DNA of 12,670 nucleotides from an uncultured Eubacteriales bacterium (GTDB lineage Bacteria; Bacillota; Clostridia; Christensenellales; Christensenellaceae), in the NCBI GenBank assembly GCA_902782475.1, contig CACZNR010000005.1, forward strand, positions 1 to 12,670, read 5' to 3'. Below, piece after piece: positions 6,544-12,670 of this stretch. Under the pieces are notes generated by a model that saw only the letters and a program-made list of their open reading frames with translations, was not told where the DNA came from and searched no databases. Both the position numbers and the translations under genes were made by a program. How positions within the stretch are numbered: the first letter of the stretch is position 1; each line of letters starts with the position of its first letter.

Positions 6544-7665
6544 TCAGATCCTGGAGTTGCGCTTCACATAGAATGGGTGTGTAATATATCCGGACAGCCA
6601 TCTGCCCTTTTCTATAAGTACATCTTTGTCCAGTACGCAGTAATTGATCCTTGCGTTCTCGGATACTACCGTATCCTGCATCACTACAGAATTTTCCACT
6701 ACTGCGCCTTTTTCTATCGTCGCACCTCTGAAGATCACAGAGTTCCTGACCTCTCCTTCGATAACCACTCCGTCTGCTATGAATGAATTTGCAACTACTG
6801 CTTCTTCACCATATTTTGTCGGGGCACTGTCTCTTGCCGGAGTGATGATAGGATTGTTTTCGTTTCCGAACAATGCCTCTCTTACATCAGATTCAAGAAG
6901 TGCCAGCGAGCTCTCCAAGTATGATGTAGGGTTCTCTATGGCAAGGACTATGCCCTTTGCCTCATAACCCACTACCTGTCCCTGTTCGATAAGAGTCCTT
7001 ATGACGTCACGTCTGAAGCTCTTCTTACCGTCCCTCTGAGCTTTTTCTATAAGGCTTATCAGGAGCTCTCTTTCTATGCAATAGGTGTTGAGTGAATATG
7101 AATAGCCTCTCGGCTTTGTCTTTTCAACTCTCTGTCCTGTTACAGCACCTTCCTCATCTACCTTGATATAGGTAGCATCTATCTCTTCCTGATGATTGAG
7201 TACCTTGTCAGCATACATGACTGAAAGCTTTGCTCCGCTCTCAATGTGCTTCTTTACGAAATCATCCAGATCCTCATTCCAGATCTGATGACACCCGGCA
7301 ATTATAACATATTTTTCTTCTGCAAATCTGAGATAAGGTATATTGGCTATGAGACCTTCAAGTCTGTTCTCATAGAACTCAGCCTGTGCCCACTGTGTTG
7401 AATACGGAGGCAGAAGGGTTATTCCGTTGAACTTCCTGCTGAGATCCCAGTCAGCACCACTTTTCAAGTGCTGTGCAAGGCTCTGATAATTCATCCTTGT
7501 GATGATACCGATATTCTTTACCCCGGCATTTGCCATGTTTGAAAGAGGAAAGTCCACAAGACGATATCTTCCGCCATAAGGAAGTGACGCCAATGTTCTT
7601 CTTTCAACGTACTCTTCCATATTCGTATCGAATGAATCTGTGAAAATAATACCTAAAGCGTTCAT
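6544..7665 (-). CDS. glgD: GlgD, non-catalytic ADP-glucose pyrophosphorylase subunit
   Basis: The 373-residue protein is a paralogue of the adjacent GlgC and the likely regulatory partner in a mixed tetramer, as known for Firmicute GlgC/GlgD enzymes. The fold is kept: a nucleotidyltransferase domain ([11 protein letters not shown] at 34-44, aligned with [11 protein letters not shown] of GlgC) and a C-terminal left-handed beta-helix of hexapeptide repeats (about 280-360). Catalytic features are lost. The Gly-rich GGxGxRL loop is absent, reading IFTDSFDTN, and the Asp of GDHIYK (Asp128 in GlgC) is Cys125 here, in AGCHQIW. The start ATG overlaps the glgC stop as ATGA and is served by GGAGGAAG inside the end of glgC, a classic coupling arrangement that should give matched amounts of the two subunits. 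Confidence 0.93.
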
Positions 7666-8864
7666 TGATCTTCCTCCTCGTGATAGACTATGTCACCCTG
7701 TTTTACTTTTCCGTTTTTCCTGATCTTGTTGTCCTTTGCGATGACCGTGAGCTTTCCTTCATCCTTAGGTCCGCCGACCTTTGCATCCTCGCCTATCTCA
7801 CATCCGGAATCCACTATGGCATACTCTACTACTGCACCTTTCTTTATGACACAGTTGTCCATGATTATGGAATCCTTGACCGATGCACCTTCTTCGATCC
7901 TTACATTTGAGAAGAGTACGCTGTGTTCAACGTCGCCCTCAACTATGCAGGCATCTCCTATAAGAGAGTTTCTCTGGATCCCTGTCTCACCGATATACTG
8001 AGGATGATTGTAACCATGTCTGAAATATATCCTCCATCCTTTATCATTGAGGATGAGCTTTTCAGGTTCATCTTCAGGCATGGAGATGGCATCCATGTTT
8101 GCTGACCAGAATGAATCCAGCGTTCCTACGTCTCTCCAGTATCCCTTGAAGAGATATGCAAACATTCTCTGTCCGTCTTCAAGCATTTTAGGTATTATGT
8201 CCTTACCAAAGTCATTACTAGAAGCAGGATTCTTCTCATCGGCCTCAAGATAGGAAATGAGTTTGTCTGTGGAGAAGATGTATACTCCCATGCTTGCCTG
8301 AGTGCTCTTAGGATTCTTTGGTTTTTCCTCGAATTCAAGTATCCTTCCTGTCTTGTCGGTGTTCATGATGCCGAATCTGGATGCTTCTTCCAGAGGAACA
8401 TCGATGACTGCTATGGTGCAGTCTGCCTTGTTGGCAATGTGCTCTTCCAGCATGATCTCATAATTCATCTTGTAGATGTGGTCTCCTGAAAGTATGAGAA
8501 CATAGTCAGGGTCATATCTCTTGATGAATCTGATGTTCTGGTAGATGGCATTTGCTGTTCCCTTGAACCAGTCGGATCCTTTAGCAGCCTGATAAGGAGG
8601 CAGGATATGAAGTCCGCCAAAGCGCAGGTTCATGTCCCATGGATCACCTGTCCCAAGATAGTCATTGAGCTCTAATGGTTGGTATTGTGTCAGAACACCT
8701 ACTGTATCAATACCTGAATTGATACAGTTCGATAAAGGAAAGTCTATTATCCTGTATCTTGAACCAAAAGGTACTGCAGGCTTTGCTACATAATTTGTAA
8801 GAGGCATTAGTCTGCTTCCCTGGCCGCCAGCCAAGAGCATCGCTATACAATGCTTTTTATTCAT
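7662..8864 (-). CDS. glgC: GlgC, glucose-1-phosphate adenylyltransferase
   Basis: It catalyses glucose 1-phosphate + ATP to ADP-glucose + PPi, the committed and usually allosterically controlled step of glycogen synthesis, in the cytosol. The protein has 400 residues. The nucleotide loop GGQGSRL (13-19), KPAVPFG (28-34), the catalytic Asp in GDHIYK (127-132, Asp128), FEEKP (178-182) and GYWRDVGT (241-248) are all intact. From about 295 a beta-helix of hexapeptide repeats forms the C-terminal domain. The gene starts 76 bases after glgB and overlaps glgD by four bases. The ribosome site is AGGG, eight bases before the ATG. Unlike GlgD next to it, every catalytic element is present, so this is the active subunit. 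Confidence 0.96.
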
Positions 8865-8940: not shown

Positions 8941-10857
8941 CTATTCTTCGATCCTTAATATTATGCCGCTCCTCTGCGGAAGTGGTATCGAGATATGCTG
9001 CGGTAGTCCGTTGACATATCCATCCCTGACCCTGAAGGTCTTTTTCCTGTGTATCTCGCTCCCGCCGTATTTTTCAACAGATGAATCAATAAGTGTCACT
9101 GCTTTGCTTCCGCCGGGAACACCTATGTCGAACTCCGGGAAACTGTTTCCTGACAGGTTCAGTGCCACGAGCAGCCTGTCTCCTGTTTCAGGATCTGTCC
9201 TGAAATATGTATAGACCGTATCCTTTGAGTTATCGGCATCTATCCATGTGAAGCCTTCCATACGGTCGTCACCTCTCCAGAGAGCAGGTTCTGACAGATA
9301 CAGCTTATTGAGATCCTTTACGAAGGACATGAGTTTCACGTGTTTCTCATACTGGAGCAGTATCCAATCAAGTTCCTGTGTCTCATTCCACTCTATGAAT
9401 TGTCCGATCTCATTTCCCATGAAGTTGAGCTTCTTTCCCGGATGGGTCATCATGTATATGAAGAATGATCTTACTCCGTCAAATTTCTGATCATATTCAC
9501 CGGGCATCTTGTCCAGAAGGCTCTTCTTTCCGTGTACCACCTCGTCATGGGATACAGGAAGTATGAAGTTCTCAGAATATGCATATGTAAGTGCAAATGT
9601 AAGCTTGTTATGGGCTCCGCCTCTGAAGAACGGATCCTTTCCAAAGTAATCAAGGGTATCGTTCATCCACCCCATGTTCCATTTGAAATTGAATCCCAGT
9701 CCGCCGACTACAGGAGGTTTTGTGACCATAGGCCAGGCTGTTGACTCCTCAGCTATGGTTAGCGCTCCCGGGAAGGATGAAAGAACGTTCTCGTTCATGA
9801 GTTGCAGAAAATGTATGGCTTCAAGATTCTCTTTTCCGCCATTCTGATTCTGTGCCCATTCACCGTCTTTTCTGTCATAGTCAAGATAGAGCATTGCTGC
9901 TATGGCATCGACCCTCAGGCCGTCGACATGGTACTGTTCAAGGAAGAAGAATGCACTCGATATCAGGAAGGAAAGGACCTCAGGACGACCGAAGTCAAAT
10001 GCTCTGGTGCCCCATCCCTTGTGTTCCATCCTGTAGGGATTCGCATCTTCATAAAGAGGTGCTCCGTCAAACTCTATGAGGCCGTGTTCATCCTTTGGAA
10101 AATGGGCAGGCACCCAGTCAAGAAATATGCCTATCCCCTGTTCATGAGCCTTGTTGACAAAATACCTGAAATCATCAGGGGAACCGAATCTAGATGTCAC
10201 TGAAAAATACCCGGTCACCTGATAGCCCCACGATCCTTCAAAAGGAAACTCCGTTATCGGCAGCAGCTCAAGATGAGTATATCCCATCCTTTTAGCATAT
10301 GGTATCAGCTTGTCCGCTATCTGTCTGTATGTCATGAAACTTCCGTCAGGATTCCTTCTCCATGAGCCAAGATGGACTTCATAGATGTTCATAGGACTCC
10401 TGTACGGATTCTGACTCTTTCTCTTTTTAAGCCAGCTGCTGTCGTTCCAGTTAAATGAAGAAGCCTTTTCGGAGACTCTTGATGCCATCTGTTCAGAAGC
10501 AGTAAAAGGCCCCTTTTCAGTTTCTTTTGCATATGGGTCGGCCTTGAATATGACCTTTCCGTCAGGATGCTCCACAGCAAACTTGTATAGGTCCCCCTTC
10601 TTCATTCCCGGAATGAAAACTTCCCAGATGGAAGAATCGTCCTCCACTCTTTTCATTGGATCCCTGGCAGGATCCCAGTTATTTATATCTGCTACAAGTG
10701 AAACATTGACTGCCCTTGGTGCCCATACTCTGAAGAGGACACCTTCCTTACCTCTGTGCTTTTCAGGAAAAGCACCTAGGAATTCGTAGGATTTGAAGTT
10801 TTTGCCTTGATGAAAGAGATATTTCTGATATGAGATATCCCTGATATTCTTACTCAT
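8941..10857 (-). CDS. glgB: GlgB, 1,4-alpha-glucan branching enzyme
   Basis: It transfers alpha-1,4 chain segments to make alpha-1,6 branches in glycogen. The 638-residue protein has one CBM48 domain (about 35-115), then a GH13 barrel with DWVPAHF (247-253), GLRVDA (313-318, nucleophile Asp317), IAEES (368-372, Glu370) and VSHDEVVHG (435-443, Asp438), and a C-terminal beta domain. The length is typical of the short Firmicute type, lacking the additional N-terminal module of longer enzymes such as the E. coli one. It is the first gene of the leftward operon. The ribosome site AGGGGA (complement of 10863-10868) stands about five to six bases before the ATG, and a promoter lies at 10895-10923. 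The gap to glgC contains only a weak hairpin, so read-through is expected. Confidence 0.96.
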   Translation of the reverse strand: MSKNIRDISYQKYLFHQGKNFKSYEFLGAFPEKHRGKEGVLFRVWAPRAVNVSLVADINNWDPARDPMKRVEDDSSIWEVFIPGMKKGDLYKFAVEHPDGKVIFKADPYAKETEKGPFTASEQMASRVSEKASSFNWNDSSWLKKRKSQNPYRSPMNIYEVHLGSWRRNPDGSFMTYRQIADKLIPYAKRMGYTHLELLPITEFPFEGSWGYQVTGYFSVTSRFGSPDDFRYFVNKAHEQGIGIFLDWVPAHFPKDEHGLIEFDGAPLYEDANPYRMEHKGWGTRAFDFGRPEVLSFLISSAFFFLEQYHVDGLRVDAIAAMLYLDYDRKDGEWAQNQNGGKENLEAIHFLQLMNENVLSSFPGALTIAEESTAWPMVTKPPVVGGLGFNFKWNMGWMNDTLDYFGKDPFFRGGAHNKLTFALTYAYSENFILPVSHDEVVHGKKSLLDKMPGEYDQKFDGVRSFFIYMMTHPGKKLNFMGNEIGQFIEWNETQELDWILLQYEKHVKLMSFVKDLNKLYLSEPALWRGDDRMEGFTWIDADNSKDTVYTYFRTDPETGDRLLVALNLSGNSFPEFDIGVPGGSKAVTLIDSSVEKYGGSEIHRKKTFRVRDGYVNGLPQHISIPLPQRSGIILRIEE

Positions 10858-11019: not shown

Positions 11020-11028
11020 TGGTATAAT
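11020..11028 (+). promoter_or_regulatory. Extended -10 promoter of glgA
   Basis: TGG-TATAAT combines the extended -10 TGn with a perfect -10 hexamer (11023-11028). No good -35 hexamer is seen 16-18 bases upstream, which suits an extended -10 promoter that may also need an activator. The predicted start is near 11035, about 28 bases before the ATG. Confidence 0.65.
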
Positions 11029-11062
11029 TTTTGCGTATTAAAAGGAATCGAGGTTTTTGATT

Positions 11063-12670
11063 ATGAGTACATCAAAGATAAAAAAGGAAACCAATGCAAC
11101 GGTTTCCGAAACATCAAAGATCAAAAAGGAAACCAAAACAGCAGTTTCCGGAACTTCAAAGATAAAAAAGGAAACCAAAACAGCAGTTTCCGGAACTTCA
11201 AAGATAAAAAAGGAAACCAAAGCAGCAGTTTCTGAAACTTCAAAGATCAAAAAGGAAACCAAAACAGCGGCTTCCAGATCATCAAAGGTAAAAAAGGAAG
11301 CAAAAACAGCAGTTCCTGAAACTTCAGAGACCAAAAAGAAGACTAAAACAGCAGTTCCTGAAACTTCAGAAATAGAAAAGGAGACCATGACGGCAGTTTC
11401 CGAAACACCTGATGCAGAAAAGGAAACTGTTATAGCAGTTCCCGACATGCCGGCCGAAGAAAAGATAAAGATCCTTTATGTGAGTCCTGAAGCTGTCCCC
11501 TTCAGTGGTACAGGCGGACTCGGAGACGTTGCAGGTTCACTCCCAAGAGCCCTTAACAGGAAGAAGGGATTTGAATGCAGAGTCATCACTCCACTTTATA
11601 AGAGCGTAGGAGATGAATACAGAGCAAAGATGAAGTTTTTAGGTCACAAGGACATACCTGTATCCTGGAGACAGAAATACATGGGAGTTTTTGAACTTAA
11701 GCACAACGGTGTCATCTACTACTTCATAGATAACGAAGAATATTTCAAAAGAGACGGAACATACGGTTTCTACGACGACTGCGAAAGATTCGCATTTTTC
11801 TCAAGAGCAGTCTATGAATGTCTTGATTTCATAGATTATGTACCGGATATCATCCATGCCAATGACTGGCAGACATCTTTAGTACCTATTTATCAGGATG
11901 CGATCTACCACAGGGAATTCATGAAGACAGTCCTCACGATTCACAACATCGAGTATCAGGGACAGTATGGCCGTGAAGTCATAGGTGATGTGCTGGGACT
12001 CCCACAGGGTTCAGAACATCTGGTGGAATTCGAAGGCGGTGTGAACCTTCTGAAAGGTGGCATAACCACAGCAAATTATGTAAACACTGTGTCCCCTACA
12101 TATGCACAGCAGCTGCATGATCCGTTCTTTGCACATGGGCTTCAGAATGTGATCTCTGAAAATGCCTACAAGATGAGAGGTATACTCAACGGGATCGATA
12201 CAGTGCTCTACGATCCTGAAAAGGATGATCTTATAGCAAAGCAGTATTCAAAGAAGGATCCTTCCGGCAAGGCTGAATGCAAGAAAGCCCTTCAGGAGGA
12301 ACTGGACCTTCCTGTAAAGGATGTTCCTATGATCACCATGATCTCAAGGCTGGTTGCCCACAAGGGAGTGGATATCATAAGGGATTCCATCGAAGGCATA
12401 ATCCAGAACAACGACGTTCAGTTCGTTCTCCTGGGTACAGGCGACCATGAATATGAGGAATTCTTCAGATACCTTGAAGGAAAATACAGAAGTCAGGTAA
12501 GGAGCCTCATACTCTTCAACAGGGCAATGTCCCATAAGGTATATGCTGCAGGAGATATACTGCTCATGCCTTCAAAGAGCGAACCATGCGGCCTTTCACA
12601 GATGATAGCCTGCAGATACGGAAACGTACCTCTCGTAAGGGCTACCGGTGGTCTCAACGACTCCATTAAG
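11063..12670 (+). CDS. glgA: GlgA, ADP-glucose glycogen synthase, with repeat extension (3' truncated)
   Basis: A GT5 glycosyltransferase that adds glucose from ADP-glucose to alpha-1,4 glucan ends. There are 536 codons in the window and the frame is open at the right edge, with roughly the last 70 residues missing. Residues 1-128 are a nine-unit repeat extension. The enzyme begins around 129 (MPAEEKIKILYVSPE) and shows GTGGLGDV (149-156), HANDWQ, TIHNIEYQG, LNGID, SRLVAHKG, the catalytic SEPCGLSQ (Glu507) and RATGGL near the edge. The first residue of the usual KxGGL loop is Gly149 instead of Lys. The start at 11063 has GAGG nine bases upstream and the promoter at 11020-11028. The in-frame ATG at 11447 would give a normal-length enzyme but has no ribosome site at the right distance. 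It is divergent from the glgB operon, so synthesis and branching enzymes can share control from one gap. Confidence 0.93.
   Translation, partial: MSTSKIKKETNATVSETSKIKKETKTAVSGTSKIKKETKTAVSGTSKIKKETKAAVSETSKIKKETKTAASRSSKVKKEAKTAVPETSETKKKTKTAVPETSEIEKETMTAVSETPDAEKETVIAVPDMPAEEKIKILYVSPEAVPFSGTGGLGDVAGSLPRALNRKKGFECRVITPLYKSVGDEYRAKMKFLGHKDIPVSWRQKYMGVFELKHNGVIYYFIDNEEYFKRDGTYGFYDDCERFAFFSRAVYECLDFIDYVPDIIHANDWQTSLVPIYQDAIYHREFMKTVLTIHNIEYQGQYGREVIGDVLGLPQGSEHLVEFEGGVNLLKGGITTANYVNTVSPTYAQQLHDPFFAHGLQNVISENAYKMRGILNGIDTVLYDPEKDDLIAKQYSKKDPSGKAECKKALQEELDLPVKDVPMITMISRLVAHKGVDIIRDSIEGIIQNNDVQFVLLGTGDHEYEEFFRYLEGKYRSQVRSLILFNRAMSHKVYAAGDILLMPSKSEPCGLSQMIACRYGNVPLVRATGGLNDSIK
11069..11446 (+). 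repeat. Nine 42-bp in-frame tandem repeats in the glgA 5' coding region
   Basis: Units begin at 11069, 11111, 11153, 11195, 11237, 11279, 11321, 11363 and 11405, with no gaps. The consensus peptide is TSKIKKETKTAVSE/G. Units 2 and 3 differ at 2 of 42 bases and units 3 and 4 at 3 of 42. Units 6-9 are progressively diverged: Pro appears near the unit ends, the Lys-rich half turns acidic (EIEKE, DAEKE), and the last unit merges into the enzyme. Because 42 is a multiple of three, gain or loss of units keeps the frame. This also leaves spurious open frames across the array on both strands. Confidence 0.95.

Follow-up and report, generated by a model that had tools for sequence, protein, structure and literature searches.

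The subject of this work is the glycogen synthase gene, glgA, at the end of a 12,670-base contig from an uncultured Eubacteriales bacterium (GenBank assembly GCA_902782475.1, contig CACZNR010000005.1). The contig, analysed over its entire length and called the window below, comes from a genome which is 85% complete in 222 contigs. The encoded GlgA is a known enzyme with an unusual tail: 128 extra residues, built mostly of nine 14-residue units, precede its catalytic domain. In several families of this order of Clostridia, GlgA was found to carry lysine/alanine/threonine-rich N-terminal tails which are predicted to be disordered, a widespread pattern that is undescribed in the literature searched. 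In our favoured reading, to which we give a probability of roughly 0.38, the tail is translated, disordered and lysine-rich, has grown by duplication of a 14-residue unit and may work as an electrostatic tether to a polyanion. From analogy with storage-granule proteins we infer that the tail would bind a partner at all, and that this partner may be the nucleoid.

The points counted for a tether are the start signal, the repeat array, the excess of synonymous changes, the predicted disorder, the preference for lysine and the mostly net positive charge. Further points are the match of one relative's tail (P0009) to the HC2 family, the second rank of the GlgA N-terminus in the nearest genome, the mostly normal length of GlgB and GlgC in genomes with a tailed GlgA, and the precedent of PhaM, PhaF and AlgP.

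The repeat array and its reading frame

An extension of 128 residues with nine 14-residue units at 11063..11446 had been described in the initial annotation, and Tandem Repeats Finder (TRF) and the translation agree on it. TRF reported a 42-bp array of 8.1 copies at 11069-11407 (82% matches, score 384), as well as 126-bp multiples of the same period at 11072-11407 (score 441) and 11072-11445 (score 363). The units are of the TSKIKKETKTAVSG type with the consensus TSKIKKETKTAVSE, and the tail has a net charge of +11. As annotated, the early units are nearly identical in DNA and the later ones decayed: identity is 83-95% among units 2-5 and 52-67% between unit 9 and the other units. Net charges of units 1 to 9 are +1, +3, +3, +2, +4, +2, +2, -3 and -3, respectively. 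The annotated change from strongly basic to acidic units is therefore correct for the seven basic and the two acidic units as groups, but unit 1 is merely +1. Inverted repeats, GGAAAC...GTTTCC, occur in several units; they might contribute to the instability of the array, or simply follow from its repetition.

Extension length and unit number were compared in relatives. Two proteins, P0001 and P0002, are 96% and 94% identical over the query GlgA and have 9 and 10 units, respectively. When the units were compared by eye, middle units were gained or altered relative to the window, and the two enzyme-proximal units were unchanged. Such differences among nearly identical enzymes suggest that the array continues to change, also away from its 5' end. 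Of the expansion at the 5' end proposed earlier, the position of the oldest-looking units next to the enzyme is retained, but the changes in P0001 and P0002 fall in the middle of the array.

The most likely start of glgA, judging from the DNA, is the ATG at 11063 behind a Shine-Dalgarno-like site. The sequence AGGA is also present upstream of it, at 11043-11046, and P0001 and P0002 carry the same start. The ATG at 11447, where the catalytic part begins, has no Shine-Dalgarno-like run within the preceding 20 bases. Relative to the consensus, the nine units contain 21 synonymous and 32 non-synonymous changes, while neutral simulation of equally many changes gave 15.0 +/- 3.0 synonymous ones (P = 0.03). 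Owing to this excess, the tail frame is probably read as protein. It is the only one of the three + strand frames which is open along the array; an open frame on the - strand (11038-11448, 136 aa) spans the array as well.

Tails on GlgA across the order

GlgA was present in 335 of the 396 genomes in our order sample, which was drawn evenly from the larger order. At least 40 extra residues were found in 35 of the 120 best protein relatives, many of these extensions being rich in lysine, alanine and threonine, and the longest comprised 263 residues (P0014). Tails of at least 30 residues were seen in 56 of the 67 loci examined; these loci were the window, the nearest genome, which is of the same genus (G001), 26 best-scoring loci and 39 picked for long open frames, and they give no prevalence estimate. 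A less biased figure is that 62 of the 150 best-scoring listed matches had open frames of at least 525, although such frames may include untranslated codons. AGGAG or AGGAGG stood before 36 of 54 tails of at least 30 aa, and seven had no Shine-Dalgarno-like run; this result is partly by construction, since tail starts in the order sample were picked for an ATG with a Shine-Dalgarno-like run. A separate genome collection contained 80 named loci (77 parsed), many of them named Lachnospiraceae, Selenomonadaceae or Lacticaseibacillus, which may lie outside the order. Three of these loci had at least 30 extra residues, namely L047 with 320, L048 with 33 and L093 with 31, the last of a different make-up.

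The pooled tails, with family f8 excluded, consisted of K 20.8, A 19.3, T 10.9, E 10.7, P 8.7 and V 7.9%, and F, Y and W together made up 0.3%. The proportion K/(K+R) was 0.86 in tails, 0.51 in the catalytic parts of the same enzymes and 0.55 in the proteins of G001. The flexibility assumed in the initial annotation agrees with the charge-hydropathy rule, which predicted disorder in 81 of 89 tails and in none of 280 catalytic parts. A net positive charge was found in 47 of the 56 tails of at least 30 aa, including 19 of 19 in family f32 and 8 of 8 in f6; for four tails (L032, L216, L224 and L240) a start at an inner ATG was set by hand ahead of the charge count, which made them shorter. The charge gradient noted in the initial annotation is visible in the window, in G001 and in genus g59 of family f15, but was rejected as a general rule and is unfit as a defining feature: the distal half was more positive per residue in 17 of 28 genus groups, with one tied (sign test p = 0.25, Wilcoxon p = 0.075), the window and G001 being counted as two groups though they share a genus. 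A coiled coil, considered because of the 14-residue (two-heptad) period, received no support from the helical moment of the consensus unit, which was not above that of shuffled units (P = 0.15).

Similarity in sequence between tails of the order was far less common than similarity in composition. Values of z > 5 were obtained for 6 of 1177 pairs from different genera and 5 of 48 from the same genus, so that homology of tails across genera is rarely detectable and was set aside. Of 88 tails, only those of P0001 and P0002 resemble the window tail beyond composition; these two were also the sole matches when 8000 candidates from a set of 5.8 billion proteins were scored with the tail only. On a tree of 280 GlgA sequences (89 tailed and 184 untailed, with seven ambiguous rows excluded) it takes 24 changes to account for the tail trait, compared to 75 with shuffled labels; well-supported branches make 16 of the 24 unavoidable. 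The trait is clustered on the tree, yet has been gained or lost many times. The ratio of non-synonymous to synonymous substitution rates (dN/dS) was computable for three of nine pairs, tail synonymous sites being saturated in the other six; it was 0.49, 0.37 and 0.26 in the tails versus 0.09, 0.014 and 0.04 in the catalytic parts, the second pair being the f8 loci L246 and L250. The tails keep their composition but not their sequence; this would agree with disordered regions selected for bulk chemistry, or with drift in a permissive niche.

The enzyme itself may have moved between lineages. The window GlgA is 72% identical to that of G001, about 52% to those of the two other genus members with GlgA, and 41-46% to those of the remaining family members; three of the seven genus genomes gave no GlgA match. 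Matches at 58-64% were named Anaerovoracaceae, and others Eubacterium or Eubacteriales. The matches to Rho of G001, by comparison, were named Clostridia, Christensenellaceae, Christensenellales, Clostridiales and Eubacteriales bacteria. Together these patterns hint at a transfer of glgA.

Candidate roles of the tail

If the tail is a tether, its basic free end would bind a polyanion, nucleoid DNA being the most plausible candidate and RNA another. The diverged acidic units, which lie between this end and the enzyme, would act as a spacer. The synthase and its growing glycogen would in this way be kept attached to the nucleoid or spread over it, rather than gathered at a pole. In E. coli, a fusion of GlgA to green fluorescent protein accumulates at the old poles, chiefly in a csrA mutant and to a smaller extent in the wild type, and polar glycogen can exclude the chromosome (PMC4836754, accessible portions); a synthase with such a tail could avoid both directly. 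It is doubtful, on the analogy available, whether one may go further and propose that tailed GlgA positions glycogen granules and shares them out at division by means of a repeatedly reinvented, histone H1-like nucleoid-binding tail. If this were true, GlgA would be the glycogen counterpart of PhaF, PhaM and AlgP, and the acidic tails of f8 would mark lineages that had switched to a different anchor.

Whether GlgA is preferred over other proteins was approached in two ways. GlgB and GlgC were compared by frame length in the 34 genomes with a tailed GlgA among 55 examined. GlgC frames measured 394-430 residues in 29 of them (query 400 residues), with four longer ones (458, 484, 785 and 806, the last two with one internal stop) and one partial (264). 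For GlgB, 31 of the 34 genomes yielded 32 matches, with frames of 624-763 (query 638 residues). By this measure, and with few exceptions, neither enzyme showed an extension comparable to that of GlgA. In G001, a simple caller of open reading frames (ORFs) was applied to 1,497,084 bases of 1.7 Mb and the resulting 1383 ORFs were ranked by how lysine-rich and low in complexity their N-terminal 50-mers are; GlgA came second. Ranks 1, 3, 4 and 5, the only ones of the top 12 on which Pfam was run, were a sigma-70 factor, an HlyD-type protein, initiation factor 2 (IF-2) and Rho. The sigma-70 factor (L180, 17233-19239) carries about 310 repetitive, lysine/glutamate-rich residues before region 1.1.

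Other searches concerned the tail sequence itself. A tail-only search of the bacterium's own genome with an expect value (E) up to 10 gave no match besides GlgA, and copies of the tail elsewhere in that genome were dismissed on this basis. In 170,606 bases of it (20 contigs and the window) the sole stronger lysine-rich repeat was a linker in the protein of locus L271. This protein (16909-18693, - strand) has a signal-like N-terminus and a long TETK/EEK linker and, by eye, peptidoglycan-binding-like repeats and an NlpC/P60-like domain. No match to the repeats was found in 50,697 phage records, and a phage origin was set aside on this ground. The initial annotation had allowed that the same tail on unrelated proteins would make it a generic linker: in the tail-only searches of the own genome and the 8000 candidates this particular sequence was found on no unrelated protein, but tails of its kind were seen on some proteins of relatives.

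The latter result comes from a scan of 21 genomes with the HC2 profile and from inspection by eye. The scan gave 13 matches (E up to 1) in nine genomes, none above the curated cut-off; the own genome and G001 had no match. One match was GlgA (L126), two were not lysine tails (L132, L133), two in f8 lay on an ORF of 297 or 345 aa adjoining ribosomal protein L24 (L125, L127), and the frame of another (L136) differs from the ABC ATPase at that place; two or three matches overall were due to chance. Lysine/alanine-rich tails recognized by eye in relatives were on trigger factor (L128, L131), an ABC (ATP-binding cassette) ATPase (L129), small proteins (L130, L134), membrane proteins (L124, L135) and the f8 ORF adjoining L24 (L125, L127). 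Since these proteins are unrelated to GlgA, the making of such tails is not exclusive to it in the order.

These last tails weigh against a tether, and so do several other observations. The HC2 scan was unspecific, with matches in 4 of 14 control genomes, and neither the window tail nor P0001 matched HC2 (PF07382). When windows anywhere in the protein were scored, GlgA of G001 fell to 16th place, behind IF-2, the sigma factor and, by eye, several secreted or lipoprotein-like proteins. An in-frame ATG at 11387 in unit 8 has AAGGAG 3 nt before it, so that a minor, shorter product keeping just the acidic units is possible; a start there would lose the basic part. Only 10 of 17 tails in f15 are net positive, and both f8 tails, L246 (genome G024) and L250 (G053), of 453 and 368 residues, have net charges of -56 and -44; a role of cations in binding DNA can therefore not be general. 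The tails come and go on the tree, their dN/dS of 0.26-0.49 against 0.01-0.09 in the catalytic part indicates weak constraint, and Thr, Ser and Glu are more abundant in the window tail than in that of AlgP, which is of the KPAA type.

A strong rival, nearly as likely as the tether though short of probable, is that the tail results from tolerated low-complexity drift, in which A-rich repeat codons slip at a permissive terminus and the product is translated with no particular partner. This would agree with the shared composition and nearly absent shared sequence of tails from different genera, the many changes on the tree, fast tail evolution and a unit number that varies among near-identical enzymes, and also with the tails on trigger factor, ABC ATPase, small and membrane proteins, the acidity of the f8 tails and the 16th place of GlgA in the whole-protein scan. 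Drift leaves unexplained, however, why it is GlgA that is tailed rather than GlgB or GlgC in the 34 genomes, why its N-terminus ranks second in G001, why lysine is so strongly preferred to arginine, and why every f32 and f6 tail of at least 30 aa is net positive. The blocks of charge, basic distally and acidic proximally in the window, G001 and g59, have suggested to us a condensate or scaffold. In it, a tail with such a charge pattern would bring GlgA together on acidic partners, for which branching enzyme, ribosomes and polyphosphate are candidates, or would associate weakly with itself around the growing glycogen particle; plant starch synthases SSIII and SSIV also use N-terminal extensions for protein contacts, according to the available part of PMC4919380. 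We regard this as rather unlikely, because just 17 of 28 genus groups show the gradient (p = 0.25) and no partner came to light, while the present data do not separate it from attachment to the nucleoid.

Two more explanations are very improbable. Net positive charge is compatible with an anchor in membrane or cell wall, where a basic tail would bind anionic phospholipid or teichoic acid, but the helical moment gives no clear amphipathic face and the aromatic residues F, Y and W are nearly missing from the pooled tails. As for a nucleic-acid element, the repeats would act as mRNA hairpins (GGAAAC...GTTTCC) or antisense terminator-like sites, and the peptide would be a by-product. Five terminator-like sites were indeed found on the - strand against 1.0 +/- 1.0 expected, all inside the array (11086-11443), and the - strand frame is open across it. 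The sense strand, on the other hand, has a fold whose advantage over shuffled sequences is slight (z = -1.73, with 5 of 100 shuffles equalling it), an excess of synonymous changes is the opposite of constraint at the RNA level, and relatives keep the composition of the peptide while their tail sequences differ. No Rfam match was obtained at the tail. The tether to a polyanion is the reading we retain, at the probability given above. The tailed, tail-less and acid-tailed relatives form a ready comparative set. Many related GlgA start with the first beta strand, so that homology-based correction of gene starts could wrongly trim such tails.

The locus and comparison with known systems

The glycogen cluster in the window comprises glgB, glgC, glgD, an amylase-family enzyme and a phosphoglucomutase-type gene on the - strand. 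The gene glgA is divergent from the glgB side, on the + strand, and is truncated at the contig end with 408 residues visible after the tail. Coordinates are listed in Table 1. A consensus promoter scan listed no + strand promoter at the TATAAT of 11023-11028.

Table 1. Coordinates of glgA, its tail and neighbouring genes in the window
Feature	Position	Strand	Basis
Possible extended -10 element of glgA, TATAAT preceded by TGG	11023..11028	+	read directly
Shine-Dalgarno-like GAGG, 9 nt before ATG 11063	11050..11053	+	read directly
GlgA N-terminal tail, 128 residues: MS and nine 14-residue units, net +11	11063..11446	+	TRF, translation
Units 1-5, TSKIKKET.. type, net +1 to +4 each	11069..11278	+	
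Units 6-7, diverged, net +2 each	11279..11362	+	
Units 8-9, acidic, net -3 each, unchanged in P0001/P0002, contain ATG 11387	11363..11446	+	
GlgA catalytic part (GT5 then GT1), truncated by contig end	11447..12670	+	Pfam
glgB, branching enzyme, without tail, divergent neighbour	8941..10857	-	
glgC-type ADP-glucose pyrophosphorylase, without tail	7662..8864	-	
glgD subunit, without tail	6544..7665	-	TIGR02092 above cut-off

Two observations were made elsewhere in the window. A pemK RNA (RF02913) was recognized at 92-153 on the - strand with 58.2 bits against a cut-off of 34.8. A 459-residue protein at 1443-2822, also on the - strand, has a lipoprotein-like N-terminal stretch and an HELMH motif and is metallopeptidase-like by eye; it matched nothing in Pfam or NCBIfam with E up to 0.001.

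The window protein scored 247 bits with PF08323 (cut-off 22.7), and Glyco_transf_5 begins at residue 136. Full-length P0001 scored 509.5 bits with TIGR02095 (cut-off 328.45), and was below the cut-off of every narrower NCBIfam equivalog model of GlgA (best 567.7 vs 603). Its residues 136-598 align with E. coli GlgA (2qzs), which has no tail. Genes for GlgB, a GlgC-type enzyme and GlgD place the ADP-glucose pathway next to it. The enzyme thus shares the catalytic domain of the ADP-glucose type GlgA (CAZy GT5) and differs by about 128 extra N-terminal residues.

A second difference lies in the Lys-X-Gly-Gly motif, where KTGG of E. coli (Lys15) is replaced by GTGG. The window motif, VPFSGTGGLGD at 11486-11530, has glycine in place of Lys15 at the ADP-glucose site. 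This lysine is absent in 185 of the 280 GlgA, with four changes on the tree, and the clade without it may have a different substrate affinity or specificity. The substitution leaves the assignment to GlgA in place, since this is made on the score of the entire domain. The tail as a compensation for the lost lysine was considered and rejected: the raw association (Fisher p = 9e-10) vanishes in 16 independent tree pairs.

Within Pfam, the window tail has no domain above cut-off. A family close in kind to such GlgA tails is Hc2 (PF07382), histone H1-like, which the GlgA tail of P0009 matched with 43.9 bits against a cut-off of 40, as the one of eight proteins to pass; P0093 scored 29.3, although its precomputed annotation lists the family. 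Hc2 shares lysine/alanine/threonine-rich low complexity with these tails, but the window tail and P0001 are unmatched.

We found no description of such a GlgA tail in the searchable literature, most subscription journals lying outside the search. Tethers between nucleoid and polyhydroxyalkanoate (PHA) or polyphosphate granules are known; for glycogen no such account was found in the same literature. Glycogen has no mention in the available main text of a review on granule positioning (PMC13052382), and the searched portion of a Chem Rev review on glucans has no mention of an N-terminal extension, of disordered or of nucleoid.

The storage-granule systems are the closest in kind. The accessible parts of the relevant papers (PMC13052382, PMC9239181, PMC3574117, PMC3556143) report that PhaM, PhaF and AlgP tie polyhydroxybutyrate (PHB)/PHA and polyphosphate granules to the nucleoid, and describe lysine-rich tails for PhaF and AlgP. 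One of these papers reports fewer and larger granules for AlgP without its C-terminus. Homology to tails with KPAA-type repeats was not found, in a comparison that included no direct alignment to PhaF or AlgP: among the 8000 scored candidates only P0001 and P0002 share the consensus unit TSKIKKETKTAVSE of the window. The tail of AlgP is of the KPAA type and the protein has, according to the source as far as available, a net charge of +55, compared to +11 for the TSKIKKETKTAVSG-type tail of the window. In PhaF and AlgP of Pseudomonas and PhaM of Ralstonia the tail is C-terminal, on a separate granule protein, whereas here it is N-terminal and on the polymerising enzyme; DNA binding is shown for these three proteins, while for the GlgA tail it is proposed.

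Plant SSIII and SSIV resemble the window GlgA in having a variable N-terminal extension before the same catalytic domain, but, in the part of the literature available, these extensions carry coiled coils or (SSIII) carbohydrate-binding modules; in the window tail no Pfam domain scored above cut-off. The likeness to PhaF and AlgP lies in a disordered, lysine-rich tail on a protein of a storage polymer, the disorder of the GlgA tail being predicted. It extends to the repeats: the repeat number of algP varies between strains, as stated in the title of Deretic and Konyecsni 1990 (cited in the accessible part of PMC13052382), just as the unit number of GlgA varies between the window, P0001 and P0002.

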